From Kineosporiaceae bacterium (GTDB lineage: Bacteria > Actinomycetota > Actinomycetes > Actinomycetales > Kineosporiaceae): DNA of 64,000 bases. A model generated the notes under the pieces. It did not search any database. It worked only from the letters and a program-made list of their open reading frames with translations, and was not told the DNA's origin. Of the stretch, positions 40,918 to 58,401 are shown in pieces; position 1 is the first letter of the stretch, and each line of letters begins with the position of its first letter. The translations under genes and the position numbers were made by a program. The DNA is taken from contig JAEUJN010000039.1 in assembly GCA_016794595.1 (NCBI GenBank), positions 1 to 64,000 on the forward strand, written 5' to 3'.

Positions 40918-41021
40918 CAACCCGCTCATGCTCCCTGGGCGACCCGCCATGCTCCGCCGATATCGGTACACAGCTCACGTATCGACCCCAATCACCGGCA
41001 CCTGCGGAGCATGATCGGGTT
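40918..41021. repeat. Palindromic intergenic element, copy 1
   Basis: Left arm AACCCGCTCATGCTCC, a second CATGCTCC 17 nt on, a variable centre, and right arm CTGCGGAGCATGATCGGGTT. It begins 38 bp after the TPR-CHAT stop, after a C-rich run, and ends 33 bp before the glycosylase ATG. Confidence 0.85.
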
Positions 41022-41054
41022 CAGCTCGGTCGGGCGCTCGGGCAAACTGGGCCC

Positions 41055-41939
41055 ATGCCCGAGTTGCCCGAGGTGGAGGCCCTGGCCGGCTTCCTGCGGG
41101 AGCGTGCCGTCGGTCTGGTGATCGCCGGGGTCGAGGTGGGCACGATCAACGTGCTGAAGACCTTCGATCCGCAGCCGAGCGCGCTGGGCGGCATGACCAT
41201 CGACGGCGTCGCTCGGCACGGCAAGTTCCTCGACCTGGACGTCGGCGGGCTGCACCTGGTGTTCCACCTCGCCCGCGCCGGATGGTTGCGCTGGTCCGAT
41301 GCCCTGGCCGCCACGGTGATCCGGCCCGGCAAGGGGCCGATCGCCCTGCGGGTGCGCCTGGCCGACCCGGACGCGCTCGACGGCGCCGGCTCGCCGGGGT
41401 TCGACCTCACCGAGGCGGGCACCCAGAAGCGGTTGGCCGTCTACGTGGTGCGCTCGGCCTCCGAGGTGCCCGGAATCGCCGCTCTGGGTCCGGACCCGCT
41501 CGGCCCGGGCTTCGACCGGGAGGCGTTGGCCGCGCTGCTCGCCGGCAAGCGGCAACAGGTCAAGGGCCTGCTGCGCGATCAGGCGGTGATCGCGGGGGTG
41601 GGCAACGCCTACAGTGACGAGGTGTTGCATGCTGCCCGGCTCTCGCCGTTCGCGATCGCGGCCACCCTGCAGGACGGCGAGGTCGACCGGCTGTACGCCG
41701 CGCTCCGGGAGGTGCTGACCTCGGCCGTCGCCGCGGCGTCCGGCAAGCCCGCCAAGGAGCTCAAGGACGCCAAGCGCGCCGGGATGCGGGTGCACGCCCG
41801 CACCGGGCAGCCCTGCCCGGTCTGTGGGGACGTCGTGCGCGAGGTCTCCTTCGCCGACTCCTCGCTGCAGTACTGCGCCACCTGCCAGACCGGGGGCAAG
41901 GTGCTCGCCGACCGACGTATGTCCCGGTTGCTCAAGTGA
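41055..41939 (+). CDS. Fpg/Nei-family DNA glycosylase
   Basis: 294 aa. N-terminal PELPE with the catalytic Pro2, H2TH motif IAGVGNAYSDEVLHAARLSP and a C-terminal zinc finger with Cys254, Cys257, Cys274 and Cys277. It excises oxidised bases (for example 8-oxoguanine or pyrimidine lesions) and nicks the strand. ELPE and the sequence fit Fpg (MutM)-like enzymes, though it is not obviously the housekeeping MutM of the rpmF-rnc locus. CAAACT ends 6 nt upstream of the ATG, so probably leaderless. It overlaps the FAH-family gene by GTGA. Confidence 0.9.
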   Translation: MPELPEVEALAGFLRERAVGLVIAGVEVGTINVLKTFDPQPSALGGMTIDGVARHGKFLDLDVGGLHLVFHLARAGWLRWSDALAATVIRPGKGPIALRVRLADPDALDGAGSPGFDLTEAGTQKRLAVYVVRSASEVPGIAALGPDPLGPGFDREALAALLAGKRQQVKGLLRDQAVIAGVGNAYSDEVLHAARLSPFAIAATLQDGEVDRLYAALREVLTSAVAAASGKPAKELKDAKRAGMRVHARTGQPCPVCGDVVREVSFADSSLQYCATCQTGGKVLADRRMSRLLK

Positions 41940-42790
41940 GCGGCGGGCCGGGGCGAGGTGCTGCGGGTGCAGGGTCCGACGGGCTGGACCCTGCCCGGCC
42001 GGACCTGGCCCAGCCGGACCCGGTCGAGGCCTGGGCCGAGCGCATCTGGACGGCGCGCACCACGGGAGCGCTGCTCGATCCCCCGAGCGCGGCCACAGGG
42101 TCGCCCGGCCCGCTGGATCTGGAGGCGGCCTACGCCGTCCAGGAATTGCTGTTCCGGCGGCGCCTGGCACGTGGGGAGCATCCTGCCGGGTTCAAGTTGG
42201 GCTACACCTCGGCGGCCATGCGGGCCCAGATGGGCATCGACGAACCGAACAGCGGCCCGCTGACCGAGCCGATGATCCTGGCCGCGGCAGGCCCCGGGTC
42301 GGTGGTGCGGTTGCCCGGCGACCTGCGCCAGCCCCGGGTCGAGCCCGAGGTTGCCCTCGTGCTCGGCCGTGACCTGACCGAGGGTGCCCCGGACGCCGTC
42401 CGGGCCGCGGTGACGGGGGCGCGGGCCGCGCTCGAGGTGGTCGACAGCAGTTGGCACGACTACCGCTTCACCCTGGCCGACAACACGGCGGACGGCTCGT
42501 CGGCGGCGTATGTCGTTCTGGGCGAACAGATCCCGCTGGACCGGGTGGACCGGCTGCCGGTGCGGCTGGTGGTCGGTGACACGGTGGCCGAAGCAGACAG
42601 TTCGGCGGCCATGGGCTCGCCCTGGACGGCGCTCGGGTGGCTGGCCGACCATCTCGCGGCCCGGGGGCAGGTGGTCCCGGCAGGCTCGGTGGTGATCACC
42701 GGCGGGTTGACCGCGGCCATCCCGGTGGCGCCGGGCCAGAGGGCGACCGCGGTCTTCGGTGAGGCCTTCGAGGTCGCCCTGACCCGCTGA
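41936..42790 (+). CDS. FAH-family hydratase/decarboxylase (2-keto-4-pentenoate type)
   Basis: 284 aa. An unusual 30-residue Gly/Pro/Asp-rich N-terminus, then a domain with GFKLGYTSAAMRAQMGI, PRVEPEVALVLG (metal-binding Glu residues) and GSPWTALGWLADHL, as in 2-keto-4-pentenoate hydratase (MhpD/XylJ) and 4-oxalocrotonate decarboxylase (XylK). It would act in meta-cleavage of aromatic compounds, but no other pathway gene is nearby, so hydratase versus decarboxylase is open. The GTG overlaps the glycosylase stop; a later start is possible because the N-terminus is unlike the family. Confidence 0.8.
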   Translation: MSGGPGRGAAGAGSDGLDPARPDLAQPDPVEAWAERIWTARTTGALLDPPSAATGSPGPLDLEAAYAVQELLFRRRLARGEHPAGFKLGYTSAAMRAQMGIDEPNSGPLTEPMILAAAGPGSVVRLPGDLRQPRVEPEVALVLGRDLTEGAPDAVRAAVTGARAALEVVDSSWHDYRFTLADNTADGSSAAYVVLGEQIPLDRVDRLPVRLVVGDTVAEADSSAAMGSPWTALGWLADHLAARGQVVPAGSVVITGGLTAAIPVAPGQRATAVFGEAFEVALTR

Positions 42791-42840
42791 GGCCGCAGGT
42801 CGGGCGGCCTTGGCCCCCGGCGCCCGGCGGGGGCCGAGAG

Positions 42841-42846
42841 TAGGTT
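42841..42846 (+). promoter_or_regulatory. Minus-10 box of a probable leaderless gene
   Basis: TAGGTT ends 7 nt before the GTG at 42854; no Shine-Dalgarno is present. Confidence 0.5.
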
Positions 42847-42853
42847 CGCTCGC

Positions 42854-43999
42854 GTGGGCTCGGTGGTCGTGCAGCGTGGCACCCCGGCGGCGGGCGTGGT
42901 GAGTGCCCTGCCGTCCGGTGAGTCGGCCGTGGACCTGATGGGGCTGCCGATGAGCACGGACCTGGCGCCGGAGGCCACCATCGGGCAGTGCCTGTCCCTG
43001 CTCGATGCCGACGCCTTCCTGGTGCTGCGCGACGGCGTCCTGGTCTGTGAGGAGTACGGCACGCCCGAGGCCGAGCACACCCCGCACCCGCTGATGTCGG
43101 TGACCAAGTCGGTCGTGGGCTGCCTGGCCGGGATGCTGATCGCCGACGGTCTGCTCGACCCGGACGCCGCGGCGTCCGGCTATGTGCCCGACCTGGCCCG
43201 CGGCGGGTACGCGAGGGCGACCGTACGCGACCTGCTCGACATGCGGACCGGCGGCGACTATCGCGAGACCTACGACGACCCGGCCGGTGAACTCGGTCGG
43301 CTGGGTCAGATCTGCGGGTGGTGGCCCCGCACCGAGCCCGACCTGCCCGGGGCGGTGCGCCCGTGGCTGGCCACGATCGATCGACCGGCGACCCCCGGGG
43401 GGCCGTTCGCCTACCGGTCGGCCGACACCGAGGTCCTGGGCTGGGTGATCGAGACGATCACCGGGACGGCGCTGCCGGAACTGGTGGGCCGGCGCCTGCT
43501 GTCCCCGATCGGGGCCGAGGCGGACGGCGTGTTCGAGGTGGATCCGGCCGGGGACGCTCTGGCCTCGGGCGGGCTCGCCCTGGTGCCCCGCGACGTCGTC
43601 CGGTTGGGCCGGCTGGTGCTGGACGGCGGGGCGGTCGGGGAGCATCAGGTGCTGCCCTCCCGGTTCCTCAAGGACACCTGGACCGGCCAGCCGGACTCGG
43701 TGGCTGCCTTCCACCACCGGGTCGGGGCGGCGGTGGGTCAGGATGCCCCGTACCCCCCGAAGGGCTTGTACCGCAACCAGTTCTGGGTGCTCGAGCAGGG
43801 GCGGCGCCGGCTGCTGGCGCTGGGTGTGCACGGCCAGTTACTGCTCGTGGACGGCGACGCGCGAGTGGTCGTCGTCCTGCTGTCGAACTGGCCGGTGCCG
43901 CAGGATCCCCGCCGGTTCGACACCGGCCTGGCCGTGGCCCTGCAGGTGACTCGCGCGATCGGCGAGCACCCCGAGCACGGGCTGTCGCTGCACGGCTGA
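42854..43999 (+). CDS. Class C beta-lactamase-like (NylB-type) serine hydrolase A
   Basis: 381 aa, no signal peptide. Active-site SVTK at 82-85 (Ser82, Lys85), a YRSADTEVLGW motif in place of YSN, and GVHGQ as the third motif. SxxK, Tyr and HGQ together resemble 6-aminohexanoate-oligomer hydrolase NylB and related amide or ester hydrolases rather than true beta-lactamases. It is the first of two such genes bracketing an ATP-grasp ligase gene; the other (45841-47124) shares the same motifs, including the HGQ and NQFW segments. Substrate unknown, but hydrolysis of an amide or peptide is a reasonable guess. Confidence 0.85.
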   Translation: MGSVVVQRGTPAAGVVSALPSGESAVDLMGLPMSTDLAPEATIGQCLSLLDADAFLVLRDGVLVCEEYGTPEAEHTPHPLMSVTKSVVGCLAGMLIADGLLDPDAAASGYVPDLARGGYARATVRDLLDMRTGGDYRETYDDPAGELGRLGQICGWWPRTEPDLPGAVRPWLATIDRPATPGGPFAYRSADTEVLGWVIETITGTALPELVGRRLLSPIGAEADGVFEVDPAGDALASGGLALVPRDVVRLGRLVLDGGAVGEHQVLPSRFLKDTWTGQPDSVAAFHHRVGAAVGQDAPYPPKGLYRNQFWVLEQGRRRLLALGVHGQLLLVDGDARVVVVLLSNWPVPQDPRRFDTGLAVALQVTRAIGEHPEHGLSLHG

Positions 44000-44109
44000 G
44001 CCTGTCGGGGGATCTGCCGAGAGGGGCTGGGCGTGGATGCCCCACTTCGGGCAAGATGTGCGGGCCCGTCCACCCGAGCCGACCCCGGACCCGCCGGAAG
44101 GAAGATCGC

Positions 44110-45792
44110 ATGAGCCGCAAGGGTGCGACCAAGGTCAGTACGACCAAGGCGACCACGTCCGTGAAATCCGGTAAGGCCACCAAGGCCGCGAAATCTGCCA
44201 AGGCTGCCAAGCAGAGCAAGGCCGGCAAGGCCGGCAAGGCCGGCAAGGCTGTGCGAGAGGCCAAGGCGGTGAAGGCGGGCAAGGCTGCCTCTCGCCCGGC
44301 CAAGGACCTGCTCGCCGACCGCAGCGGCAAGGACGGGCGGATCCGGTTGCGCAACATGTCCGAGGTGCGCACCTTCTTCCGGACCAACGAGACGCCGATC
44401 GTGTTCATCGGTCCGACCGCCTTCAACCTGCTGGGTATCGACCGCTGGGTGCGCAACTTCTCGTTCGTGACCTTCTACGACTCCTGGGACGGCTACCACC
44501 CCCGGGTCTACTGCCCGCCGCAGATCGAGCACCCGGAGTTCACCTGTGGTGAGGACATCAACAACTACCTGCTGACCCACCCGGCGGTGCGCGAGCACAT
44601 CGCCGCCCAGGTCCACCGTCCGGGTGATCGCCCCAAGGTGGCGATGGTGTTCTTCGACGAACGCACCGAGCAGATCTGTGCCGAGGCCGGCTACGACCTG
44701 ATCCTGCCGCCGTACGCCCTGCGGAACCACCTGGACTCCAAGATCACGACCACGCGGCTGGGCGCCGAGGCGGGGGCCCCGAGCGTGCCGAACATCCTCA
44801 CCACGGTGGAGTCCTGGGAGGACCTGGTGGCCCAGGCCGAGCGCGCCGGGTTGGGGCGGGACCTGGTGCTGCAGAAGGCCTATGGCGACTCGGGCAAGAC
44901 CACGTTCTTCGTTGCCTCGCGGGCGGACTGGAACAAGTGCGCCACCGCGGTGGTCGGCGAGCAGGTCAAGGTGATGAAGCGGATCACCAACCGTGCGATC
45001 GCCGTGGAGGCGGTGAACACCCGGCACGGCACCATCGTGGGCCCGTTCATGACCGACCTGACCGGTTACCCCGAGCTGACCCCCTACCGCGGTGGTTGGT
45101 GCGGCAACGACCTGTTCCCGGAGGCGCTCAACCCGGATCAGCGGGCGCGCGCCGTCCGGCACGTGCGCCGCCTGGGCGACCGGCTGCGCAAGGAGGGCTA
45201 CCGCGGCTTCTTCGAGATCGACGTCCTGGTCGACCTGGACACCGACGAGGTGTACTTGGGCGAGCTGAACCCGCGGGTCTCGGGGGCCAGTTCGATGACC
45301 AACGTGACCGCCGGGGCCTACGCCGACGTGCCGCTGTTCCTGTTCCACCTGTTGGAGTTCCTGGACGTCGACTACTCCGTCGATGTCGACGAGATCAACG
45401 AGCGGTGGCTCGAGCTGGCGGCAGTGGACGTCTGGAGCCAGCTGATCATGAAGATCCCGGACGGCGAGGTGCGGCGGATCAACCGGGCCCCGGAGACCGG
45501 CATCTACCGGTTGCGCAGCGATGGCAGCCTGCAGTTCGTGCGTCCCACGCTGGACTGGCACTACCTGGCCGACGCCGACGAGGCGTTCTTCCTGCGGGTG
45601 TACGGCCCGGGGGACTACCTGTTCAAGGGTGCCGACATCGGGATCCTGGTGTCCAAGGCGCGCATGCAGACCGACGACCCGGACCTGACCGAGAAGTGCC
45701 GCAGCTTCATCGAGGGCATCCACGCCGAGTACGAGACCTCGGCGATCCGCGCCAAACCCAAGCCCATCAGCCACCTCGCCTACCTCAAGTAG
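44110..45792 (+). CDS. ATP-grasp ligase with Lys/Ala-rich histone-like N-terminal tail
   Basis: 560 aa. Residues 1-70 are a low-complexity basic tail (KAAKSAKAAKQSKAGKAGKAGK and similar) like histone H1 or the tails of HupS/Lsr2-type proteins. An ATP-grasp region follows at about 200-470, with VLQKAYGDSGKTTFF and the metal-binding ELNPRVSGASS. A C-terminal 80 residues end in a basic segment. It resembles proteins labelled biotin carboxylase, but no biotin-carrier domain or carboxyltransferase is nearby, so a different ATP-dependent ligation (amide, peptide or carboxylate activation) is equally possible. AAGGAAG precedes the ATG. Flanking serine hydrolases may act on its product. Confidence 0.78.
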   Translation: MSRKGATKVSTTKATTSVKSGKATKAAKSAKAAKQSKAGKAGKAGKAVREAKAVKAGKAASRPAKDLLADRSGKDGRIRLRNMSEVRTFFRTNETPIVFIGPTAFNLLGIDRWVRNFSFVTFYDSWDGYHPRVYCPPQIEHPEFTCGEDINNYLLTHPAVREHIAAQVHRPGDRPKVAMVFFDERTEQICAEAGYDLILPPYALRNHLDSKITTTRLGAEAGAPSVPNILTTVESWEDLVAQAERAGLGRDLVLQKAYGDSGKTTFFVASRADWNKCATAVVGEQVKVMKRITNRAIAVEAVNTRHGTIVGPFMTDLTGYPELTPYRGGWCGNDLFPEALNPDQRARAVRHVRRLGDRLRKEGYRGFFEIDVLVDLDTDEVYLGELNPRVSGASSMTNVTAGAYADVPLFLFHLLEFLDVDYSVDVDEINERWLELAAVDVWSQLIMKIPDGEVRRINRAPETGIYRLRSDGSLQFVRPTLDWHYLADADEAFFLRVYGPGDYLFKGADIGILVSKARMQTDDPDLTEKCRSFIEGIHAEYETSAIRAKPKPISHLAYLK

Positions 45793-45840
45793 CCCCCCCG
45801 CCCAACCAGTGAGCAGGTTGGGGTGGGCCTGGGCGAGCGA

Positions 45841-47124
45841 TCAGCCGGACGACAGGGCGCGCCCGATCGCGTGGAAGGCGGCGATCGTCGCCTGCAGTCG
45901 CGGCGCGTCCTGCGGCAGGGACCAGCTCGACAGCTTGACCCCGACCAGCTCGCGGGCCGGGTCGACGTAGATCATCTGCCCGTGGATGCCCAGGCAGAGC
46001 AGAACCGGCCCGGCGTCCCCCGGGACGAACCAGAACTGGTTGCGGTACCAGCCCCCGGGCAGGTAGGGCTCGTTCTCGCTGCGCGCGAACGCATCCCGGA
46101 CGTCGGCCGGCGGCGAGAAGGCAGTCTCCAACCAGGACGACGGGATCACCTGGTGCGCACCCACGGTGCCGCCGTCCAGCAGCATCAGCCCGAACCGGCC
46201 GAGGTCGCGAGTGGTGGCCGACAGCCCGCCGTCGTGGATCGCCGAGCCGAGTGGGTCGACCGTGATCTCGGCATCGTGGTAGGCGCCCATGGGCTGCCAG
46301 ATCCGCTGGCTGATCAGGTCTGCCATGCGCAGCCCGGCCGCGCGTTCACAGACCCAGCCCAGGGTGTCGGTGTCGATCGAGCGGTAGACGAAGGTTCCGT
46401 CGTGCTCGCTCTCGCCGGCGATGGTCAGGATGTAGGGGTACATGCCCAGGGGGTCCCCGTGGTTGCGCGGCGCCCAGCCCATGGAGCGTTCCATCACCCG
46501 GACCTCGGAGGAGGGGTCGAGGTAGGTCTCGTGGAACCGGATGCCCGAGCGCATGTCGAGCAGGGTGCGCACCCGGGCGGAGGCGTACCCGCAGCCGGCC
46601 AGCTCGGGCACGTAGGTCTCGGCGGGGGCCTCGGGGTCGAGCAAGCCGTCGGCGCTCAGGCTCGCCGCGACGCAGGAGACCACGGACTTGGTCACCGACA
46701 TCACCAGGTGTCGCCGCCGGGGGATCATCGTGCCGAGGTAGCGCTCCTCGACGATCTCCCCGCGGTGCAGCACCAGGAAGGAGTCGGTGTCGGTCGCCGC
46801 GATGACCTCTTCCACCGTGTCGACACCGAGCAGGGCCGGGGCCTCCTCCACCCGCACGGCGCCGAGATTCTGTGGCTGCACGGGCAGGACGCGGGGGGAC
46901 TCCGTGCCGTCGATCACGTGACTGGGCATCAGCTCGCGCATGTGCTGGAACGCCCAGTGGTGGTGCGGGCTCTCCTGCCAGTTGGCCAGCGTGATCAGCG
47001 GGTGACCAGGGGCGATGATCGTGCCCCACTCGTCGACGTGCGCCCAGGCGGTCCCCGGCTGGGCCTGGTAGTAGGGGTGCCCGCTCGGGGGCACGGACAC
47101 GACGTCGGCGACTGGTTCGGACAC
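45841..47124 (-). CDS. Class C beta-lactamase-like (NylB-type) serine hydrolase B
   Basis: 427 aa paralogue of the hydrolase at 42854, with SVTK at 143-146, FVYRSIDTDTLGW and GIHGQ. A longer N-terminal region (1-80) contains HHHWAFQHMRELMPSHVI. It has no signal peptide. It converges on the ATP-grasp gene (48-bp gap). The two hydrolases are diverged, so this is an old duplication rather than a recent one. TAGGAT ends 6 nt before the GTG, so the transcript is probably leaderless. Confidence 0.85.
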   Translation of the reverse strand: MSEPVADVVSVPPSGHPYYQAQPGTAWAHVDEWGTIIAPGHPLITLANWQESPHHHWAFQHMRELMPSHVIDGTESPRVLPVQPQNLGAVRVEEAPALLGVDTVEEVIAATDTDSFLVLHRGEIVEERYLGTMIPRRRHLVMSVTKSVVSCVAASLSADGLLDPEAPAETYVPELAGCGYASARVRTLLDMRSGIRFHETYLDPSSEVRVMERSMGWAPRNHGDPLGMYPYILTIAGESEHDGTFVYRSIDTDTLGWVCERAAGLRMADLISQRIWQPMGAYHDAEITVDPLGSAIHDGGLSATTRDLGRFGLMLLDGGTVGAHQVIPSSWLETAFSPPADVRDAFARSENEPYLPGGWYRNQFWFVPGDAGPVLLCLGIHGQMIYVDPARELVGVKLSSWSLPQDAPRLQATIAAFHAIGRALSSG

Positions 47125-47130
47125 GAACCG

Positions 47131-47301: not shown

Positions 47302-47407
47302 CCAACCCGCTCATGCTCCCCAGGTGACCGGCCATGCTCCCCCCAGATCAGGACATACCGCCCATGGGTCGAGCATCGCGCGTCACCTGCGGAGCATGAC
47401 CGGGTTT
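47302..47407. repeat. Palindromic intergenic element, copy 2
   Basis: CCAACCCGCTCATGCTCC, second CATGCTCC at 47333-47340, then GAGCAT and CTGCGGAGCATGACCGGGTT on the right. This is the one copy not next to a stop codon: it lies between the divergent serine hydrolase B and CAP genes. Confidence 0.85.
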
Positions 47408-47519
47408 GTCAGTCGGCCGGCAACTCGGGGCTCCCAGCTCAGGATCCCTTCAGCATCTCCTGACCCCGAGATGAGGACCTGGGGTCGACACTGGCCCTCA
47501 CCGCTCGAAGGACGGCCTC

Positions 47520-48347
47520 ATGGCAAAGCACCACCACGAGAGTGGACCTCACAGACCTCACAGCTGGGGCCGGGTGTCGACGCTCGTGGCGACAGGTGCT
47601 GCCACCCTGCTCGCGACCGGCGCATTGTGGTGGACCCTGCTCCCGGTGCTGGGTCAAGGGCATGGCCACACACCGTGGAGCGCTGACGGCGTCACGACCC
47701 TGACGAGCGAGCCGGGCGACGCAACTGTCGGTGGCGAACCCCCGCGGACGGAGGCGCCCACATCGTCGGTACGCCCCTTCCAGCCCACGAGATCGCAGTC
47801 CACGCGGGCGACGCAGCGCACGCAGTCGACGCCGAGGTTGTCGGCGAGCAGCGCCGTCCCCAGCATGGAGCGCAGCCGGTACGGTCCGGCCCCGGACACC
47901 TCCTTGGTGCGGGGCACTGGCCGTCCCACGTCATCCCCTCAGGCGTCCAGGCGTCCCGTGAACTCCGTCACGACGACGACTCAGCCCCAACCTCCGCCGA
48001 CGAGGACGACGGCCGTTGACGGGGTGAAGTTCCGTCGGGAGTTCGTGACTGCTCTGAACAGCCGCCGCTCGGCGCTCGGGCTGCCCGCGGTCACGTTCAG
48101 CCAAGAGCTCTCGGACGCCGCCGCGGAGTGCTCGGCCAAGAGTCTGGAACTCGGCAGACTCGAACACTGCGGTCACGAGGTGCTCTGGATGGGCGGAGCC
48201 GGCGGCAGTGTCGAGAACGTGCTCGACGCCTGGTTCAACAGCCAGGGACACCTCACCGCGTTGACGTACGGCTCCTCACGCAACGCCGGTGGGGCGTTCG
48301 TGGTCCGGGGCAACACCGCGGTGGCCGCCATCACCATCGACTACTGA
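47520..48347 (+). CDS. CAP (SCP/PR-1-like) domain protein, secreted or membrane-anchored
   Basis: 275 aa. A His-rich N-terminus and one hydrophobic segment (about 18-40) suggest an uncleaved signal anchor. A long Ser/Thr/Arg/Pro-rich linker (50-165) leads to a C-terminal CAP domain (about 172-275): FVTALNSRRSALGLPAVTFSQEL, an HCGHEV segment, ENVLDAWFNSQGH and GAFVV. CAP proteins bind envelope lipids or act in defence; the role here is unknown. Bases are somewhat less GC-rich than in neighbouring genes, and it is flanked on both sides by copies of the palindromic element, so recent gain is possible. Confidence 0.78.
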   Translation: MAKHHHESGPHRPHSWGRVSTLVATGAATLLATGALWWTLLPVLGQGHGHTPWSADGVTTLTSEPGDATVGGEPPRTEAPTSSVRPFQPTRSQSTRATQRTQSTPRLSASSAVPSMERSRYGPAPDTSLVRGTGRPTSSPQASRRPVNSVTTTTQPQPPPTRTTAVDGVKFRREFVTALNSRRSALGLPAVTFSQELSDAAAECSAKSLELGRLEHCGHEVLWMGGAGGSVENVLDAWFNSQGHLTALTYGSSRNAGGAFVVRGNTAVAAITIDY

Positions 48348-48393
48348 TCCATCGGCACCCTGACCGGGCTTCGACATCCCGCCGACATCCACC

Positions 48394-48502
48394 CCAACCC
48401 CGCTCATGCTCCTCAGGGACCAGTGATGCTCCGCGGACGACGCATCCCACGCGTCATCCCCGGAGCATGACCAGTCAGCAGCGGAGCATGAGCCGGTTTG
48501 GG
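48394..48502. repeat. Palindromic intergenic element, copy 3
   Basis: CCAACCCCGCTCATGCTCC with a second (G)ATGCTCC on the left; CGGAGCATGA and GCGGAGCATGAGCCGG on the right. It lies between convergent CAP and glutaryl-CoA dehydrogenase genes, 47 bp after one stop and 11 bp after the other, and probably terminates both. Confidence 0.85.
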
Positions 48503-48512: not shown

Positions 48513-49709
48513 TCAGCGGTAGGCGGGGATGCCGGTGAGGGCCTGGCCGATCATCAGGGTGTGCATCTCGACGGTGCCCTCGTAGGTCAGCACCGACTCC
48601 AGGTTGTTGGCGTGCCGCATCACCGGGAACTCGCCGCTGATCCCGTTGGCGCCCAGGATGGTTCGCGCCGTCCGGCAGATCTCGAGCGCCTTGGTGACGT
48701 TGTTGTACTTGCCCAGGCTCACCTGGTCGGGACGCAGGCCGACCTCGTCCTTGCGCCGGCCGAGGTGCAGCGCCAGCAGCTGACCGTTGATCAGCTCGAC
48801 CGCCATGTTCGCCAGCTTCGCCTGGGTCAGCTGGAAGCCTGCGATGGGCCTGCCGAACTGCTCGCGCTCCATCGAGTACCGCCGCGCCGCCTCGAACGCC
48901 GACCGGCCGGCCCCGAGGGCGCCCCAGACGATCCCGTAGCGCGCCTCGTTCAGGCACGACAGCGGGCCCTTGAGCCCGCGCACCTCCGGCAGGATCGCCG
49001 ACCCCGGCAGCCGCACACCCTCGAGCACCAGTTCGCTCGTGATCGAGGCCCGCAGGGACATCTTGTGCTTGATCTTCGGGGCCGAGAACCCGGGCACCGA
49101 GGTCGGCACGACGAACCCGCGGATCCCGCCGTTCTCCTCCCCGGCGTTCGCCCACACCACGGCCACGTCGGCGATGGACCCGTTGGTGATCCACATCTTC
49201 GCCCCGTCGAGCACCCAGTCGCCGCCGTCGCGCCGGGCCGTCGTCCGCATCGAGCCGGGGTCGGAGCCGAAGTCGGGCTCGGTGAGCCCGAAGCACCCGA
49301 TCGCCTCGCCCGTCGCCAGTTGCGGCAGCCACTCGGTCTTCTGCTCCTCGCTGCCCCAGCGCCAGATGGCGAACATGGCCAGCGAGCCCTGCACCGAGAC
49401 CAGGCTGCGGATGCCCGAGTCGCTCGCCTCGAGCTCGAGGCAGGCCAGGCCGTAGTCGACCGCGCTCATCCCCGCACAGCCGTAGCCTTCGAGGTGCATC
49501 CCGAGCAAGCCGACCTTGCCGAACTCCCTCGCCAGTTCACGGGCAGCGGGCAGCTCGCCGGACTCGTACCACTGCGCGATCGAGGGCTCGACGGCGTCGT
49601 CACAGACCTGGCGGACGGCCTCGCGGACGGCCTTCTCCTCGGCGGTGAGCAGCGAGTCGAGGTCGGCGAGGTCCTGCGGGTTGGTGGTGCGGCTGCTGGT
49701 CGTCTTCAT
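48513..49709 (-). CDS. gcdH: Glutaryl-CoA dehydrogenase-like acyl-CoA dehydrogenase
   Basis: 398 aa. The acyl-CoA dehydrogenase fold with GCFGLTEPDFGSDP, MWITNGSIADVAVVWA and the catalytic Glu377 in TYEGTVEMHTLMIGQALTG. The VQGSLAMFAI and catalytic region match GcdH, which oxidises and decarboxylates glutaryl-CoA to crotonyl-CoA in lysine, tryptophan or glutarate catabolism. The family III CoA-transferase gene just upstream (81 bp) would activate glutarate, which strengthens the call. A weaker alternative is another short-chain acyl-CoA dehydrogenase. Confidence 0.86.
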   Translation of the reverse strand: MKTTSSRTTNPQDLADLDSLLTAEEKAVREAVRQVCDDAVEPSIAQWYESGELPAARELAREFGKVGLLGMHLEGYGCAGMSAVDYGLACLELEASDSGIRSLVSVQGSLAMFAIWRWGSEEQKTEWLPQLATGEAIGCFGLTEPDFGSDPGSMRTTARRDGGDWVLDGAKMWITNGSIADVAVVWANAGEENGGIRGFVVPTSVPGFSAPKIKHKMSLRASITSELVLEGVRLPGSAILPEVRGLKGPLSCLNEARYGIVWGALGAGRSAFEAARRYSMEREQFGRPIAGFQLTQAKLANMAVELINGQLLALHLGRRKDEVGLRPDQVSLGKYNNVTKALEICRTARTILGANGISGEFPVMRHANNLESVLTYEGTVEMHTLMIGQALTGIPAYR

Positions 49710-49790: not shown

Positions 49791-51005
49791 TCAGCGGACG
49801 TCGGGCTGACGCAACCAGGCGCGGACGGCGGCGTCGTGCTCGCCCAGGGCGGGTGGCGGGCTGGGGTCGGCGGTGCGATAGGCGTTCCAGCGCACCGGAT
49901 GGCGGAGCTGGCGGGTCCGGGGGGGCCCTCCGGACGCCGCGCCAGAGGTGCCGCTCACGTCGACCACCGGGTCCAGGCCGAGCCGCTCGGCGAGTGCGAC
50001 GCCGTCCAGGATGGTGCCGACCCGCCCAGCCGGCACGTCGGCGGCGGTCAGGGCCCCCACCCAGGCGTCCGCGGTGTCGATCGACAGCAGCGCCTCCAGC
50101 CGCTCGACCAGCGCCTCCCGATGCCCGACCCGGGCTGCGTTCGTCGCGTAGTCCGGATCGGCGGACAGCGCGGCATCCCCGAGAACCGTTGCCATCCGGG
50201 CGAACTGGCCGTCGTTGCCGCACGCCACGGCGATCAGCGCGTCCTTGCAGTGCAGCGTCTCGTAGGGCGCGATGCTCGGGTGCCGATTGCCCAGGCCGGA
50301 CGGCGCGCGCCCGGTCTCCAGGGCGGCCTGGCCCTGGTTGACCATCGCCGCCAGGGAGGAGGTGAGCAGGCTGACCTCGATTCGCTCGCCGCGGCCGGTG
50401 CGGGCCCGGGCTGCGAGGGCCGCCAGGATGCCGATGGTGGCGTCCTTGCCGGTCAGCACGTCCACCAGAGCGACACCGGCCTTGGTGGGCTCGCCCGGGG
50501 CCCCGGTGATGCTCATCAGCCCGCCGACGGCCTGCACGACGAAGTCGTACCCGAGCAGGTCCGCTCCGGCTCCCGAGCCGAAACCGTTGATCTCGCAATA
50601 GATCACGGCAGGATTGACGGCGCACAGGTGGTCGTAGCCCAGGCCCAGCCGATCCATGGTGCCGGGCTTGAAGTTGGAGATCACCACGTCGGCCCGGCGG
50701 GCCAGCTCGAACGCCAGTGCCCGGTCGCCCCCCTCGGAGGTGTCGCCCAGGTCGAGGGCGACCGACTCCTTGGTGCGGTTGATCGACTCGAAGTAGGTGC
50801 TGGCGGCAGGGGGGTGGGTCGAGTAGGGCGGTCCCCAGGAGCGGGTCTCGTCGCCCACTCCCGGGCGTTCCACCTTGATCACTCGGGCGCCGAGGTCGGC
50901 CAGGGTCATCGTGGCCAGCGGCCCGGCGAGCACCCGGCTGAAGTCGGCGACCAGCACCCCGTCCAGCGGCCGGCCCGCCGCCCCGCGATCGTCGTGGTCA
51001 CTCAC
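49791..51005 (-). CDS. CaiB/BaiF family III CoA-transferase
   Basis: 404 aa from GTG 51005, chosen because TACCGT ends 7 nt upstream (leaderless); a GTG three codons earlier is possible. N-terminal LDGVLVADFSRVLAGPLATMTLADLGARVIKVE, the DVLTGKDATIGILAALAAR segment with the catalytic Asp (family III CoA-transferases use an Asp), and a C-terminal LGEHD motif. It probably moves CoA between succinyl-CoA and glutarate, feeding GcdH encoded downstream, as in SUGCT-type enzymes. It is divergent from the PucR-type regulator, which probably controls it. Confidence 0.85.
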   Translation of the reverse strand: MSDHDDRGAAGRPLDGVLVADFSRVLAGPLATMTLADLGARVIKVERPGVGDETRSWGPPYSTHPPAASTYFESINRTKESVALDLGDTSEGGDRALAFELARRADVVISNFKPGTMDRLGLGYDHLCAVNPAVIYCEINGFGSGAGADLLGYDFVVQAVGGLMSITGAPGEPTKAGVALVDVLTGKDATIGILAALAARARTGRGERIEVSLLTSSLAAMVNQGQAALETGRAPSGLGNRHPSIAPYETLHCKDALIAVACGNDGQFARMATVLGDAALSADPDYATNAARVGHREALVERLEALLSIDTADAWVGALTAADVPAGRVGTILDGVALAERLGLDPVVDVSGTSGAASGGPPRTRQLRHPVRWNAYRTADPSPPPALGEHDAAVRAWLRQPDVR

Positions 51006-51083: not shown

Positions 51084-51092
51084 GCCCAGATC

Positions 51093-53447: not shown

Positions 53448-53490
53448 GCGTAACCTACGCGAGCGTAAGTTACGCTGGCGTAGGTTATGC
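53448..53490. promoter_or_regulatory. Nested palindromic operator upstream of nitronate monooxygenase
   Basis: Outer 13-bp arms (GCGTAACCTACGC at 53448-53460 and GCGTAGGTTATGC at 53478-53490, one mismatch) surround a perfect AGCGTAA-G-TTACGCT dyad (53462-53476). It resembles TetR-type operators of actinobacterial lipid and acyl-CoA genes (TTACGC/GCGTAA half sites). It lies 29 bp before the ATG, so it could block transcription. Confidence 0.65.
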
Positions 53491-53518
53491 GGGGCCGCGC
53501 CCCGCCCGAGGAGGCGTC

Positions 53519-54967
53519 ATGATCGGCACCGGCACCCTTCCGCAGATCATCCAGGGCGGGATGGGTGTGGCAGTCTCCGACTGGCATCTCGCCCGCGCCG
53601 TCTGCCAGGCAGGCCAGCTCGGGGTGGTCTCGGGGACGGCGCTCGAGGTGGTGTGCACGCGCCGGCTGGCGGACGGCGACCCGGGCGGTGACGTCCGGCA
53701 GGCGCTCGCCGCCTTCCCGGTGCCGGAGGTCGCCCGCTGGATCGTCGAGTCCTACTTCGTCGAGGGCGGGATCGCCCCCGGAGCGGCCTACCGGCAGGTG
53801 CCCCGGCACACCCTGACCTCCTCGCGCAGGCTGCTCGAGCTCACCGCGGCGGCCAACTTCGTCGAGGTGTACCTGGCCAAGCAGGGTCACCAGGGGCCGG
53901 TCGGGATCAACTACCTGCGCAAGATCGAGCTTCCGCTGCCGGCCGCGCTGTACGGCGCGATGCTGGCCGGGGTCGACTACGTGCTGGTGGGTGCCGGCAA
54001 TCCCGGCGAGATGCCCGCCTTGACCCGAGCGCTGGCCGCGCACCGGCCGGTCACCCTGTCGGTGCGCGTGCAGGGTGCCCGATCGGGAGATGGCCTGGGG
54101 GACATGCAGTTCGACCCTGCCCAGGTCGCTCCCGACCTGGCCGCCGCGGGCGCCGCGCTGCCCGTGCCCGGGGTGCTCGCGATCGTCGCCTCGAATGACC
54201 TGGCGCGAGCCCTGGCTGAGGATCCCGCCACGCGTCCAGCCGGCTTCGTGGTCGAGGGTGCGGACGCCGGCGGGCACAACGCGCCGCCGCGTGGCCCCCG
54301 CCGGGTGGACCCGATCGGCCAGCCGATCTACGACGAGCGCGACCAGGTGGACGTGCCCGGTCTGCTCGCCCACGGCCTGCCGGTCTGGTTGGCCGGGGCC
54401 TACGGGTCCCCGGCCCGGTTGCGCGAGGCGCTGGCCGCCGGGGCGGCCGGCGTCCAGGTCGGTACCGCCTTCGCCTACTGCAACGAGTCGGGGTTCGACC
54501 CGGCGATCAAGGGGCAGGTGCACGCCGCGGTGTCCGCGGGTGAGCTGACCGTGCGCGCCGACTGGCGTGTCTCACCGACCGGTTTCCCGTTCCACGTCGC
54601 CGAGGTGCCCGGCACCCTGACCGACCCGGAGGTGGTCGGGGCCCGGACGCCGGTCTGCGACCTCGGTGCCCTGCGCTCCCCGTACGTCACGGCGGACGGC
54701 GAGGTCGACTACCGCTGCCCGGCCGAGCCGGCCAAGGCCTACCTGCGCAAGGGTGGCCGGGAGGTGAACATGCAGGGCAGGGTCTGCCTGTGCAACGCCC
54801 TGTTCGCCAGCGCCGGTTATGCCCAGCGCCGTCCGCACGGGGCGGTCGAACCCCCGTTGGTGACCTCGGGCGATGACCTCGAGGCGGTCCGGGTGTTGCT
54901 GGAACGCCGTGGTGGCCAAGGCTATTCGGCTCGGGACGTGGTCGACTACCTGCTCGGCGACGGCTGA
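53519..54967 (+). CDS. Nitronate monooxygenase-like FMN enzyme, PfaD-related
   Basis: 482 aa TIM-barrel flavoprotein: PQIIQGGMGVAVSDWHLARAV, VEGADAGGHNAPP (FMN phosphate-binding region) and VQVGTAFAY. The family includes 2-nitropropane dioxygenase/nitronate monooxygenase and the PfaD enoyl reductases; the length (over 450 aa) and C-terminal CLCNALFASAGYAQ region resemble the PfaD-like group. Substrate unassigned. GAGGAG lies 8 nt before the ATG, beyond the palindromic operator. Its 3' end overlaps the OmpA-like gene antisense by 22 bp. Confidence 0.82.
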   Translation: MIGTGTLPQIIQGGMGVAVSDWHLARAVCQAGQLGVVSGTALEVVCTRRLADGDPGGDVRQALAAFPVPEVARWIVESYFVEGGIAPGAAYRQVPRHTLTSSRRLLELTAAANFVEVYLAKQGHQGPVGINYLRKIELPLPAALYGAMLAGVDYVLVGAGNPGEMPALTRALAAHRPVTLSVRVQGARSGDGLGDMQFDPAQVAPDLAAAGAALPVPGVLAIVASNDLARALAEDPATRPAGFVVEGADAGGHNAPPRGPRRVDPIGQPIYDERDQVDVPGLLAHGLPVWLAGAYGSPARLREALAAGAAGVQVGTAFAYCNESGFDPAIKGQVHAAVSAGELTVRADWRVSPTGFPFHVAEVPGTLTDPEVVGARTPVCDLGALRSPYVTADGEVDYRCPAEPAKAYLRKGGREVNMQGRVCLCNALFASAGYAQRRPHGAVEPPLVTSGDDLEAVRVLLERRGGQGYSARDVVDYLLGDG

Positions 54968-55506
54968 GGCGTCGGCGCGCCGCGCTGGACGGCGATGATC
55001 ACCCGCCGGTTGGCCCGGCGGTTCTGCTCGGTGTCGTTCGGCATGGCCGGCAAGGCCTCACCGACGGGGATCACCTGGATCCGGGCGCGGTCGAGGTGGC
55101 CATGATCGACCAGCCACCGCGCGACCGTGGAGGCCCTGGCCAGCGCCAGTTCGAGGTTGTACTGCTCCGATCCCACGTCGTCGGTGTACCCCTCGACCCG
55201 GATCGTTCCGCGCAGGCCGGCCGTCTCCACCTCGGCGAGGATCGCTCGCAGCAGCGGGGCGGCCTCGGGGTTCAGAGCCGCTGAGTCGTGGTCGAACAGG
55301 ATGCCCGAGGGCGCGGTGTACACCGTCGAGTCGGGGTCTCGGGCGAGCGGGCCGGAGGGCCAGTCGGACGCCGGCAGCGTGGGTGAGCGCAGCGCCGTCC
55401 AGGCCCAGCCGGCCCCGATCACCAGGGCGAGTACGCCCACCGCGAGGGTGAGCGTGGTCCGGGTCGACCGCCGACCCCCCGTCGGCGTCGTGAGTGCATG
55501 CGTCAC
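54946..55506 (-). CDS. OmpA-like (PAL) domain membrane protein
   Basis: 186 aa. One membrane helix (about 20-42) and a C-terminal OmpA/MotB-type peptidoglycan-binding domain: GTIRVEGYTDDVGSEQYNLELALARASTVARWLV and NRRANRRVIIAV. It probably anchors to the wall outside the membrane. GGAGGGG precedes the GTG by about 8 nt. It converges on the nitronate monooxygenase gene with a 22-bp overlap and is divergent from the AraC gene. Confidence 0.86.
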   Translation of the reverse strand: MTHALTTPTGGRRSTRTTLTLAVGVLALVIGAGWAWTALRSPTLPASDWPSGPLARDPDSTVYTAPSGILFDHDSAALNPEAAPLLRAILAEVETAGLRGTIRVEGYTDDVGSEQYNLELALARASTVARWLVDHGHLDRARIQVIPVGEALPAMPNDTEQNRRANRRVIIAVQRGAPTPQPSPSR

Positions 55507-55571
55507 AAGCCACCCCTCCCCAGTGGATCAACGCGATCGTACGCCTCGCCGGCTCCTGCCAGACTCTCGGT

Positions 55572-56126
55572 ATGAGCTCCACGTCCCTGCCGCCGAGCCG
55601 TCACCTGGTGCGGGCCAAGGACCTTGCCGATGCCCGCTACGCCGAGCCGATCACGGTGGCCGACATGGCGGCCGCGGCGATGCTCTCACCCGCGCACTTC
55701 AGCCGGCAGTTCGCGCGGGCCTTCGGTGAGAGCCCGCACCGGTACCTGCTCAGTCGTCGGCTCGAGCGGGCAGCGACGCTGCTGCGGGCCACGGACTGGC
55801 CGGTGGCGCGGGTGTGCATGTCGGTGGGGCTGAGCAGTGTGGGATCGTTCACCTCCAGCTTCAGCCGGATGTTCGGGCTCTCCCCGGCCGCCTACCGGGC
55901 CGCCAATCCCCCCGCCGCCCAGCTGGCCCGGGTGCCCGCGTGTGTGCTGCGGGTGTACGGCCGGCCGGTGGTCCGGACGGCGCGCGCCGGGCAGGCGCAC
56001 AGGGCAGAGCAGGTGAGCACGATTCGAGAAGACGCCGGTCCCACACCACCCGTAGAACTGGTGACCACCAGTCGGCGGGCCGGAGAACAGGGGCCCGCCC
56101 ACCCCGTACCCGAGGAGTCCCGATGA
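55572..56126 (+). CDS. AraC-family regulator, short
   Basis: 184 aa, consisting of an AraC helix-turn-helix pair (about residues 15-115: ARYAEPITVADMAAAAMLSPAHFSRQF and SVGLSSVGSFTSSFSRMFG) followed by a basic, Pro-rich tail with no sensor domain. CAGACT ends 6 nt upstream of the ATG. The stop overlaps the ATG of a VOC protein gene (ATGA), so regulator and VOC protein form one operon. Confidence 0.87.
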   Translation: MSSTSLPPSRHLVRAKDLADARYAEPITVADMAAAAMLSPAHFSRQFARAFGESPHRYLLSRRLERAATLLRATDWPVARVCMSVGLSSVGSFTSSFSRMFGLSPAAYRAANPPAAQLARVPACVLRVYGRPVVRTARAGQAHRAEQVSTIREDAGPTPPVELVTTSRRAGEQGPAHPVPEESR

Positions 56127-56551
56127 TCCGCATCACCACGACGCAGCTGTGGGTTCACGACCAGGACGAGGCCCTGGCCTTCTACACCGACAAGGTCGGC
56201 ATGGAGGTCAAGGAGGACGTCACCGTGCCCGAGATGGGCAACTTCCGGTGGTTGACGGTGGCTCCGCCCGGGCAGGACGACATCGCGATCGTGCTGATGG
56301 CGATCCCCGGGCCGCCGATCGCCGACCAGGCCATGGGCGAGGCGATCCGCGACCTGATGGGCAAGGGCATGGCCGGCGCGGTGTTCCTGACCACCGATGA
56401 CTGCGAGAAGGCCTACGAGGAGATGTCAGCCCGCGGCGTGGAGTTCACCGAACCACCGCAGCGGCAGCTCTACGGCATCGACTGCGGGTTCCGCGACCCG
56501 TCCGGAAACACCCTGCGGCTGACCCAACCGGACACCTCGTTCGGGAAGTGA
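56123..56551 (+). CDS. VOC-superfamily (glyoxalase/bleomycin-resistance) protein
   Basis: 142 aa, one VOC domain: TTTQLWVHDQDEALAFYTDKVGM, AGAVFLTTDDCEKAYEEM and FRDPSGNTLRLTQP. Members include glyoxalase I, dioxygenases and antibiotic-binding proteins, so a specific activity is not assignable. GAGGAG lies 7 nt before the ATG. Coupled with the AraC gene, it is probably its regulated target. Confidence 0.87.
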   Translation: MIRITTTQLWVHDQDEALAFYTDKVGMEVKEDVTVPEMGNFRWLTVAPPGQDDIAIVLMAIPGPPIADQAMGEAIRDLMGKGMAGAVFLTTDDCEKAYEEMSARGVEFTEPPQRQLYGIDCGFRDPSGNTLRLTQPDTSFGK

Positions 56552-56588
56552 GCCTCCGTGAGCCCTGGGGTCGCATCGGCATGACCGG

Positions 56589-57320
56589 ATGAACGTCTCC
56601 AGTGAGGTTCGGGCGCTCGATGAGTCGATCCGGCAGGCCGGCCGACCCGAGCGGGCCGAGGGCGAGCGGCGCTACCTGAAGAGCGAGCTGGTGCACTACG
56701 GCTCGGCCGTGCCGGTGCTCCGGACGGCGGTGCGCGGCTTCCTCCGGAGCCGGCCCGACCTCGAGCACGACCAGCTCATCAGCCTGGCCACCGAGCTGTG
56801 GTGCCGACCGGAGACGGCGCCGGTGCACGAGCGGCGCCTGGCCGCCGTCCTGCTTCTGGCCCAGCGGGTTCGGCTGCTCGGTCCGGACGACGTGCCGTTG
56901 CTCGAGCAGCTGATCCGGCAGGGGCGTACCTGGGCCTTGGTCGACCCGCTGGCCACGGATGTCGCCGGACCGCTGCTGGATCAACAGGATTGGGCCGATC
57001 CGGTGCTGGAGAGGTGGGCCGGCGACGCGGACTTCTGGATTCGGCGAGCCGCCCTGCTGGCCCACCTGCGCCCGCTACGAGCCGGGGAGGGCGACCTCGA
57101 CCGCTTCCTGAGGCTGGCCGACGGCATGCTGGAGGAGCGGGAGTTCTTCATCCGCAAGGCGATCGGGTGGGTGCTGCGCGAGACCGGCCGCCGCCGTCCG
57201 GACGAGGTTCTCGCCTGGTTGCTTCCCCGGGCCCGCCGAGCCAGCGGTCTCACCCTGCGCGAGGCCACGAGACACCTCCCCGACGCCGCTCGCACCAACC
57301 TGCTCATGCTCCGCGGGTGA
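56589..57320 (+). CDS. AlkD-like HEAT-repeat DNA alkylation repair protein
   Basis: 243 aa of HEAT-like helices with the AlkD-type segments GERRYLKSELVHYGSAVPVLR and FFIRKAIGWVLRETGRRRPDEV. These enzymes remove bulky or positively charged alkylated bases without base flipping. The last eight codons and the TGA (TNLLMLRG) are encoded by the left arm of palindromic element copy 4, so the element has set the C-terminus of this protein. A HEAT-repeat protein without glycosylase activity is the alternative. Confidence 0.8.
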   Translation: MNVSSEVRALDESIRQAGRPERAEGERRYLKSELVHYGSAVPVLRTAVRGFLRSRPDLEHDQLISLATELWCRPETAPVHERRLAAVLLLAQRVRLLGPDDVPLLEQLIRQGRTWALVDPLATDVAGPLLDQQDWADPVLERWAGDADFWIRRAALLAHLRPLRAGEGDLDRFLRLADGMLEEREFFIRKAIGWVLRETGRRRPDEVLAWLLPRARRASGLTLREATRHLPDAARTNLLMLRG

Positions 57321-57411
57321 CCGGCGATGATCGGACAGTGGTGACGAATGCGGCGAACTGACAGTCAGCTGCGGAGCATGAGCAGTCGGCCGAGGAGCAT
57401 GACCTGGTGGG
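57295..57411. repeat. Palindromic intergenic element, copy 4
   Basis: Left arm CAACCTGCTCATGCTCCGC overlaps the end of the AlkD-like gene; right side CTGCGGAGCATGAGC followed by CGAGGAGCATGACC and a G-rich run. It separates the AlkD-like gene from the broken S1-domain gene. Confidence 0.8.
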
Positions 57412-57707
57412 GAAGGACTGGCGGGAGGGTGGTGAGCCGCCTCCTGCTGGGGGTCCGTGTCAGCTGATCCCCCACCTGGACGACGCAGCCTGGGCCCGTT
57501 TCTCGGCCACCCACACCGTGGGTGAACTTGGTGGACGGGCAGGTGATCGAGCTCGTGCCGTTCGGGGCATTCGTCCGGGTCGACGGTGTCGACGGGCTGG
57601 CTCCCGGGAGCGAGTGGCCCACCACTCCTGAGACCGGCAATCGGCTTCGGGCTCGGATCCTGGCCATCGACCCGGTGCTCCGGCGGTTCAGTCTCGGGCT
57701 GGCCTGA
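57407..57707 (+). pseudogene. S1-type RNA-binding domain gene, frameshifted remnant
   Basis: One frame encodes WARFSATHTVGE (57491-57526); the next frame resumes VDGQVIELVPFGAFVRVDGVDGLAPGSEW through RRFSLGLA and stop at 57707. Joined, they form a normal S1/OB segment; one extra base in the CTTG at 57527-57530 explains the shift. The whole would be about 100 aa, upstream limit uncertain. It could be an authentic pseudogene, a sequencing error, or a short S1 domain started at the GTG at 57522. Confidence 0.6.
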
Positions 57708-57822
57708 CCCTGATGGCCATCGGGGCCCGCTGCCGTCCGCCATGGGCGGCGGCGGGTCCCGGTGACCGCGGGCGGCAGTCGAGCGTGGTGCCCGGCAGGC
57801 AGAGGGATGCCATGCTCGTCGG

Positions 57823-58272
57823 ATGACCCTCTACGAAGCGGCCGGCGGCGACGCGGGGTTGTTGCGCCTGGCCGAGGCGTGGCATCGACGGGTGATGGCC
57901 GACGAGGTCGTGTCGCATGCGTTCGGTCACGGCTTCCGTCCCGATCACACGCCTCGATTGGCGGCCTACTGGGCCGAGGCGCTCGGCGGTCCGGCGGCCT
58001 ACTCCCAGACCTACGGCGACGAGAGCCTCGTCGTGCGGTTGCACAGCGGCAACGGGGTCCACGAGGAGATGGACCAGAGAGCGATCGCGTGTTTCGACGC
58101 GGCTCTGGGGGATGCCGGTCTGGCGGACGACGAACGCGTCAGGGCCGCCCTGCACGACTACTTCGCCTGGGCCACCATGACGTCGATGGCCGGGTACCCC
58201 CACTCGCCGGACGACGTCCCCGAGGGTCTGCAGATCCCCCGGTGGGGCTGGGACGGCCTGCAGTCCGGCTGA
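57823..58272 (+). CDS. Group II truncated haemoglobin
   Basis: 149 aa 2-on-2 globin: FGHGFRPDHTPRLAAYWAEALGGPAAYS, then VVRLHSGNGVHEEM with the likely proximal His74, and FAWATMTSM near the C-terminus. It resembles actinobacterial globins related to trHbO but does not fit canonical GlbO exactly; it probably binds oxygen or NO. CATGCT ends 6 nt before the ATG, so probably leaderless. Copy 5 of the palindromic element follows 15 bp after the stop. Confidence 0.82.
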   Translation: MTLYEAAGGDAGLLRLAEAWHRRVMADEVVSHAFGHGFRPDHTPRLAAYWAEALGGPAAYSQTYGDESLVVRLHSGNGVHEEMDQRAIACFDAALGDAGLADDERVRAALHDYFAWATMTSMAGYPHSPDDVPEGLQIPRWGWDGLQSG

Positions 58273-58286
58273 CTGCTCCGGTTCCG

Positions 58287-58401
58287 AAACCCGCTCATGC
58301 TCCGCAGCTGACGACTCGTGATCAGACAAATGGGATTTATCGGACGGATGGACAGTCGCCTGCGGAGTATGGCCGGGCGGCTGCGGAGCATGAGCGGGTT
58401 G
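58287..58401. repeat. Palindromic intergenic element, copy 5 (best-preserved)
   Basis: Perfect 21-bp terminal arms at 58288-58308 and 58380-58400 (arm opens AACCCGCTCATGCTCC), with a further CTGCGGAGTATG at 58360-58371. It lies between the haemoglobin and S9 peptidase stops (15 and 10 bp away) and reads into the G-rich run before the peptidase stop. Confidence 0.9.

Follow-up and report, generated by a model that had tools for sequence, protein, structure and literature searches.

Palindromic repeats that lie between genes, and insertion sequences (ISs) that use such repeats as landing sites, have been described in several forms. As outlined in PMC3116915, REPINs consist of two inverted conserved arms and a spacer, and are extragenic, dispersed and foldable. 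The account of CGTC-tagged repetitive extragenic palindromes (REPs) in PMC3733652 gives them an unpaired CGTC tag, a stem of 8–9 bp and a loop of 4–5 nt, places them mostly as inverted dimers between unidirectional and converging genes, and names no dedicated transposase as known. Tobes and Pareja (PMC1525189) presented palindromic repeats of Pseudomonas and Sinorhizobium as hot spots for particular ISs, and the description of IS621 in PMC11208160 combines an IS110-family recombinase, a CT core and target guides in the left end with one target site inside the REPs of E. coli. In the window, a 64,000-nucleotide stretch of a Kineosporiaceae bacterium (contig JAEUJN010000039.1, positions 1 to 64,000), a preliminary description had claimed five copies of a palindromic intergenic element, and we followed this element through the genome. 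We put slightly below one half (about 0.47) the probability that it is a dispersed repeat of REPIN-like type, so far recorded in this genome alone, whose arms and spacing are bound by a putative protein at gene ends, and to whose arms the guide of an IS110-family element has become adapted.

The layout of the element is AACCYGCT-CATGCTCC (A1)-N13-NATGCTCC (A2)-centre-(GGAGCATN, A2')-N13-GGAGCATG (A1')-AGCRGGTT, in which A2' is often absent; it is a dispersed, extragenic inverted doublet of a conserved 16-mer, with arms AACCYGCTCATGCTCC and GGAGCATGAGCRGGTT. In the assembly searched (4.95 Mb, 99.44% complete, 123 contigs, 73% GC) it occupies at least 76 places by our own count from 150 listed of 152 profile matches on both strands, and the true number may be higher, as scoring was limited to the best candidates. 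The proposed dispersed family is thus borne out, the element being neither confined to five copies nor without conserved spacing. The half-site pattern matched 87 times in this genome, compared with 6 times for the reversed control, and the paired pattern was found at 53 places. Among 395 other genomes of the order the paired pattern gave at most one match each (15 genomes had one), and the profile matched once in each of two of 12 other genomes of the taxonomic family, at E 0.004–0.005, which we took as chance. Because the genus is represented by this one genome among those searched, a repeat that appears private to the genome may be private to the genus. Nine single half-site matches in genome_contigs and five paired matches in viral_contigs were also taken as chance because of their context and profile scores (at best 23.2 bits in genome_contigs, compared with 78.9 for the best family copy, and no profile match to those in viral_contigs); both sets may omit the source genome's own records. 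One copy used as query had no match in plasmids and phages. Among the literature listings inspected, no title pointed to work on such repeats in actinobacteria, and the titles listed by a text search for the arm letters concern other subjects.

Compared with REPINs as characterized in PMC3116915, the family has a second block inside the arm and two length bands about one turn apart, shows no near-identical independent copies within its length classes, and occupies only some 76 places. The REP-associated Y1 transposase (RAYT) that the preliminary description had proposed to look for was not found: the model PF01797 gave no match at E 0.001 in this nearly complete assembly, and it did match in 5 of 14 control genomes. 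A GTAG tag at the foot of the small hairpin was present in none of 136 arms of 27 nt. Membership among the CGTC-tagged REPs was considered and rejected, since the tag stands in only 48 of the 136 arms and the local stem that can be drawn differs from that given in PMC3733652, having 6 positions and a 9-nt loop and no covariation (619 pairs formed, 626 when the letters were dealt). The name REPIN-like was chosen because of these three results, for RAYT, for the GTAG tag and for the tag, stem and loop of the CGTC-tagged REPs. Direct flank matches were at chance (8 compared with 8.3 for k=1, and 0 for k=2–9), and no target-site duplication was seen. Of the REP/BIME- or MITE-like family first suggested, the REPIN-like layout and the dispersal are supported, and a Y1 transposase and a target-site duplication are not.

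All five copies claimed for the window are present, with limits that we redrew to run from AACC to GGTT:

Copy 1, 40919 to 41021, forward strand: 103 bp, with A1 at 40927–40934, A2 at 40948–40955 and A1' at 41006–41013
Copy 2, 47304 to 47406, forward strand: 103 bp, four blocks; the sole window copy called between divergent genes
Copy 3, 48397 to 48498, reverse strand: 102 bp, four blocks, one pair 20 bp apart
Copy 4, 57297 to 57409, reverse strand: 113 bp, GATCAT subclass
Copy 5, 58288 to 58400, reverse strand: 113 bp, GATCAT subclass, with the perfect 21-bp ends already described

The A1 block CATGCTCC occurs 14 times in the window compared with 2.84 expected, and none of 100 shuffles reached 14, which excludes a chance origin of these copies. 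A profile built from 63 family copies, the five window copies among them, matched the five at best-strand E-values of 3.5e-21 to 9.6e-20; all else in the window scored E 0.65 or worse, and the first 40 kb is thus without the element, as had been stated. The gap between the 8-mers, given earlier as about 9–20 nt, is 12–13 nt in the window copies (a period of 21 bp, but 20 bp at one side of copy 3). With the left defined as the side of the stronger second block, the four-block pattern stood in part: it is complete in some window copies and incomplete or altered on the right in the rest, the second right-hand block being unrecognisable in copy 1, 20 bp from its partner in copy 3, and represented by GATCAT-like letters in copies 4 and 5. 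Four of the five copies contain a stop codon or lie no more than 39 bp from one, again in agreement with the preliminary description, copy 2 being the divergent exception. Copy 1 begins 39 bp past the stop codon of a gene ending at 40879 and precedes a gene with Fapy-DNA glycosylase domains (41055–41939), and copy 3 is flanked by the converging genes for a CAP-domain protein (47520–48347) and an acyl-CoA dehydrogenase (48513–49709). A TGA inside an arm of copy 4 is the stop codon of a DNA-alkylation-repair gene (56589–57320), and copy 5 sits between a globin-like gene (57823–58272) and a prolyl-oligopeptidase-like gene (58411–60297).

For the statistics a set of 66 copies was reduced to 64 by dropping window position 13742 (8 mismatches, spurious) and L113 (the same as L112, including its 30-nt flanks). 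Gene context was assessed on these 64; four later copies brought those measured to 68, and the 63 copies of length 102, 103 or 113 bp were used for fixed-register covariation and half-swap folding. Eight of the 76 places stayed outside the statistics (the second C54 copy, C120:16275, C120:20254, C76, C93:20343, C122:169303, C39:22540 and C109:23214). Within a search range of 90–134 bp the lengths were 101 bp (one copy), 102 (37), 103 (19), 104 (one), 112 (one), 113 (seven) and 114 bp (two), that is, two bands of 101–104 and 112–114 bp separated by about one helical turn. By our own arithmetic the centres of A1 and A1' stand 78–79 or 89 bp apart, or about 7.5 and 8.5 turns of 10.5 bp. The seven 113-bp copies are alike in the centre and were treated as a single subfamily, and in six of them a GATCAT-type A2' can be recognised; the 112-bp copy has a different centre, and the two 114-bp copies, one of which (L107) is of uncertain length because one end is degenerate, are weakly alike. 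On the right side, where no spacing was required, an A2' differing in no more than one letter was seen in 20 of the 68 copies, placed at 21 bp in 12 of them, at 22 bp in five, at 20 bp in two and at 16 bp in one.

The outer blocks A1 and A1' are near-invariant (identity 0.94–1.00) compared with strongly diverged inner centres, whose identity is 0.34 in the 102-bp class and 0.32 in the 103-bp class (0.27 and 0.28 expected from composition) and 0.49 in the 113-bp subfamily. Apart from L112 and L113, both on contig C54 and with shared flanks, the most alike pair of cores within a length class is 84% identical. Since near-identical independent copies were not seen, the copies look old, with little drift in arms and length, and selection on arms and spacing would then have continued after the spread. 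The two C54 copies (3287–3389 and 50088–50190) are identical, stand in inverse orientation and have identical 30-nt flanks, and they represent either an inverted duplication or an effect of assembly.

A codon-usage gene caller placed 32 of the 64 copies between converging genes, 24 between tandem genes and 4 between divergent genes, with 4 undetermined. Converging surroundings were thus found for 32 of 60 classifiable copies, compared with about 9% at random placement, and 58 of the 64 lie within 60 bp of a stop codon, compared with 18%. Random placement consisted of dropping a 102-bp piece into the gaps of a 304-kb background (37 of 274 gaps converging), for which the score threshold was stricter than for the copies; its 12 stretches were chosen away from listed copies and are uninformative on density. 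Mapping against gene ends, as had been proposed, therefore bears out a preference for 3' ends. The tandem copies lie closer to the upstream stop codon in 16 cases and to the downstream start in 8. Three genes (at window 57297, L077 and L098) end at the same distance inside an arm, at its TGA; the L098 frame (573–2129) ends NLLMLRR, and the window frame 56589–57320 reads NLLMLRG before its stop.

The local clustering suggested by the window was also found genome-wide, with eight neighbour gaps below 2 kb compared with 2.29 expected (p 0.0012). Pairs of elements 0.7–1.4 kb apart occur in the window (47304–48498 and 57297–58400) and on C57, C78, C39 and C120. Each window pair encloses one small gene, encoding a CAP-domain protein in the first and a globin in the second; between the two elements of the C120 pair lies most of a reading frame of 348 aa that has no match in Pfam.

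A connection that the preliminary description had not foreseen is with an IS of 1,534 bp, whose protein matches DEDD_Tnp_IS110 (PF01548), Transposase_20 (PF02371) and the IS110 RNA-guided transposase model NF033542, and which therefore belongs to the IS110 family with its DEDD recombinase. The same sequence interrupts the element at the same place in two copies at contig ends (C12 and C13) and in one inside C120, the insertion bond in the arm being AACCYG-CT|CATGCTCC.

Candidate target sequence for the IS110-family element: AACCTGCTCATGCTCC

The right-end junctions in C12, C13 and C120 all read CAGGGCAA|CTCATGCTCC, that is, CAGGGCAA|CT-CATGCTCC. Left-end junctions were seen as AACCCGCT|CACTGG (C55) and CCACCTGCT|CACTGG (C94), and the left end follows AACCCG-CT in C55, CCACCTG-CT in C94 and CCCGCAA-CT in C120. 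The leader of the IS carries ACCTGCT, then a small hairpin, then GCATGAG (the complement of CTCATGC), and both stretches match the arm. In the published scheme, as given for IS621 in PMC11208160, the partner of the right guide is the top strand and that of the left guide the bottom strand, for which reason the left guide has the letters of the top strand; both leader guides fit that scheme. By its letters and predicted fold the leader thus contains putative target guides that match the insertion site, poorly so at the left flank in C120. Exact sites of the guide type ACCYGCTCATGC number 97 in the genome, compared with 7 for the reversed control, and 92 of the 97 fall within places of the family.

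Relatives of this IS, 55–70% identical, were found at ten loci in six other genomes among 396 searched. Their leaders align well, the stretch of the left guide being the variable block, and in a consensus fold of six leaders the two guides share an internal loop, while 6 of 35 pairs are maintained through double changes; the IS leader had no match in Rfam. Over 12 junctions of eight ISs, guide and target agreed in 50 of 84 letters compared with a mean of 36 when dealt, and 30 of 20000 deals were as high; L180, whose left end was not seen, was excluded from this comparison, and several boundaries in it were set by motif only. At the level of sequence, junctions and guide letters together show that the IS targets the arms. 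Compared with IS621 and E. coli REPs as described in PMC11208160, another repeat family is involved here, and the left guide is unlike those in the six genomes with relatives of the IS. Compared with the Pseudomonas and Sinorhizobium ISs covered in PMC1525189, the present case is in a 73% GC genome of another group and comes with a matching guide read in the IS leader. One relative, L175 (positions 926 and 1177 of contig C8 in G073), has two tandem leaders, and the end of the first appears to be fused to the second. In addition, the left flanks of relatives L171–L180 end in TCG or TCCG at seven of nine junctions and the right flanks start with CTCAT at all seven seen; CTCAT is the complement of ATGAGCGA, possibly indicating a habit of inserting at gene starts.

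The arms could be conserved as DNA or as halves of an RNA hairpin. Over the outer 29 pairs the mirrored variable positions do not covary overall (1497 pairs compared with 1481 when dealt, sd 12.4, 213 of 2000 as high), and hence the hairpin follows mostly from the sequence kept in each arm. No covariation was found for a local hairpin within each arm, where the strongest dependence is between neighbouring letters (20–21, 21–22 and 17–18), as expected of duplex recognition or of subfamilies. A fixed-register covariation scan gave 20.6 in the 102-bp class (null maximum 20.8) and 7.1 in the 113-bp class (7.4); in the 103-bp class it gave 13.7 compared with 13.4, located in the flanks (−11 to −7) and barely above 20 shuffles. 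A fold test of the centre only was not significant in the 102- and 113-bp classes, and in the 103-bp class gave p 0.03 for one cut and 0.08 for the other.

We infer that the most likely mechanism is a duplex site at gene ends, bound by protein and nearly constant in its spacing, one that may coexist with a role in RNA; among the roles first suggested, protein binding would be the best fit. A putative protein that recognises a specific sequence would bind the arms as double-stranded DNA and assemble over the spaced sites; as a roadblock or a 3' boundary it would mark or insulate transcription units at their ends, with the hairpin as a by-product or secondary aid. The IS110-family element would be directed by a bridge RNA with an altered left target guide, so that the arms serve as gene-sparing landing sites, much as IS621 uses E. 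coli REPs.

Several results weigh against this reading. The 21-bp spacing on the left is built in, because the search pattern behind 60 of the first 64 or so copies fixed A1 and A2 at that distance (four copies found by their arms alone have their best A2 likewise at 21 bp), and the unconstrained right sides include spacings of 20 and 22 bp and one of 16 bp. Conservation of the left arm is inflated, the copies having been found through their arms; the right arm was loosely required. The one-turn step in length rests on few independent events, namely the 112-bp copy and the two 114-bp copies, L107 among them, because the 113-bp copies share homology in the centre. Pairing does exceed chance at the outer 16 positions (983 compared with 972.8, 32 of 2000 shuffles) and at position 4 (35 compared with 26.4, p 0.017). 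When right halves were swapped, the true halves folded better by 2.3 kcal in the 102-bp class (−61.4 compared with −59.1, p 0.004) and by about 3.6 kcal in the 103-bp class (−67.2 compared with −63.7, p 0.005), which reflects either some selection for the hairpin or shared ancestry of the ends; in the 113-bp class no such advantage was found (p 0.85). The sequence is therefore kept tighter than the pairing, with a small pairing residue. As for the guides, agreement is 2 of 7 letters for the left flank in C120 and again for the locus L178, and the guide of G255 fits the C-variant of the arm (5 of 7) better than the present element's own guide does (4 of 7).

The main rival, which we consider unlikely, is an RNA element, either a bidirectional terminator or a hairpin stabilising the 3' ends of mRNA, perhaps assisted by Rho, which would act on both transcripts through their C-rich, G-poor tails. 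It would account for the placement at gene 3' ends, for the hairpins of all five window copies, which are stronger than shuffles (z −2.2 to −7.2), and for the slight folding advantage of true halves in two length classes. The C-rich tails are also distinctive: the first 10 nt of the flanks have a C content of 0.71 on the left and a G content of 0.60 on the right, compared with 0.40 and 0.31 in the 40 nt past 20 converging stops without the element. The conservation of sequence above pairing argues against it, as do the tolerance of C.A mismatches and independent G/C changes, and the narrow length bands and block spacing of 20–22 bp, which have no evident role in a hairpin. Furthermore, a search for intrinsic terminators (a GC hairpin with a T tract) between 40800 and 58600 gave two matches, with 3.0 expected, and none at the five window copies. 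The terminator suggested earlier was thus not found in its intrinsic form with a T tract at the five window copies, and of the suggested mRNA stabiliser the strong hairpin remains, mostly as a by-product of arm sequence with a small folding residue in two of three length classes. No window sequence reached an Rfam gathering score.

A rather improbable alternative is a non-autonomous mobile element of the REPIN or MITE kind, with arms acted on by a transposase that either belongs to a type not recognised here or has since been lost; insertions would be tolerated at gene ends, and the element would need no function for the host. In its favour are the set size of the inverted arms, restriction to one lineage, the clustering and the layout shared with REPINs (as sketched in PMC3116915), and the three genes ending at the same TGA look as if the element had been acquired there. 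It is opposed by the results for Y1 transposase and target duplication, by the limit of 84% likeness within length classes outside the C54 pair, and by arms that are undecayed while the centres have decayed. In addition, the exact arms among the matches listed, inspected by eye in this 123-contig draft, had a near partner or belonged to a half-element (C120:20336), and no longer element bounded by the same arms was noticed. Integron attC sites are folded single-strand recombination sites bounded by AAC..GTT, and the outer AAC...GTT, the length of about 100 bp and the pairs some 1 kb apart around single genes recall them, but this origin is hardly credible given the dispersal of the copies, mainly between converging genes, and an integron-integrase model (TIGR02249) with none of 14 matches reaching its cut-off, which none of the 14 genomes, controls included, reached.

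A second, unrelated repeat was seen in the sequences scanned. It forms a near-perfect hairpin around GTGATCATGCACTTTCGA at window 24894–24959 (z −11.1), L161:4286, L168:181 and L168:16682, the four copies found across the 304 kb, with none in L145. Two of the four stand past converging genes, and the window copy lies between frames ending at 24903 (forward) and 24950 (reverse); this repeat is a candidate family of bidirectional terminators.

A stronger form of the protein-binding interpretation, which we regard as doubtful, is that the family constitutes a new class of chromosomal boundary element. At the ends of genes, especially converging ones, a putative dedicated protein would occupy half-sites, two to four in number and helically spaced (about 21 bp apart in the arm, 78–79 or 89 bp between arm centres), and build a nucleoprotein complex of fixed form by which transcription is stopped or conflicts are limited; the left guide of an IS110 bridge RNA would have evolved to use exactly these sites for safe insertion. 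The usual view of REP-like repeats is that they are RNA hairpins or debris of transposons, and a reading as spaced sites would differ from both; if true, this high-GC bacterium would have a repeated, protein-bound DNA mark at the ends of its genes. The IS110 result would be a natural case of a bridge-RNA guide that differs from those of its relatives and fits a lineage-private repeat, and, next to that of IS621 in the REPs of E. coli, it would be a further example of RNA-guided landing on palindromic repeats.

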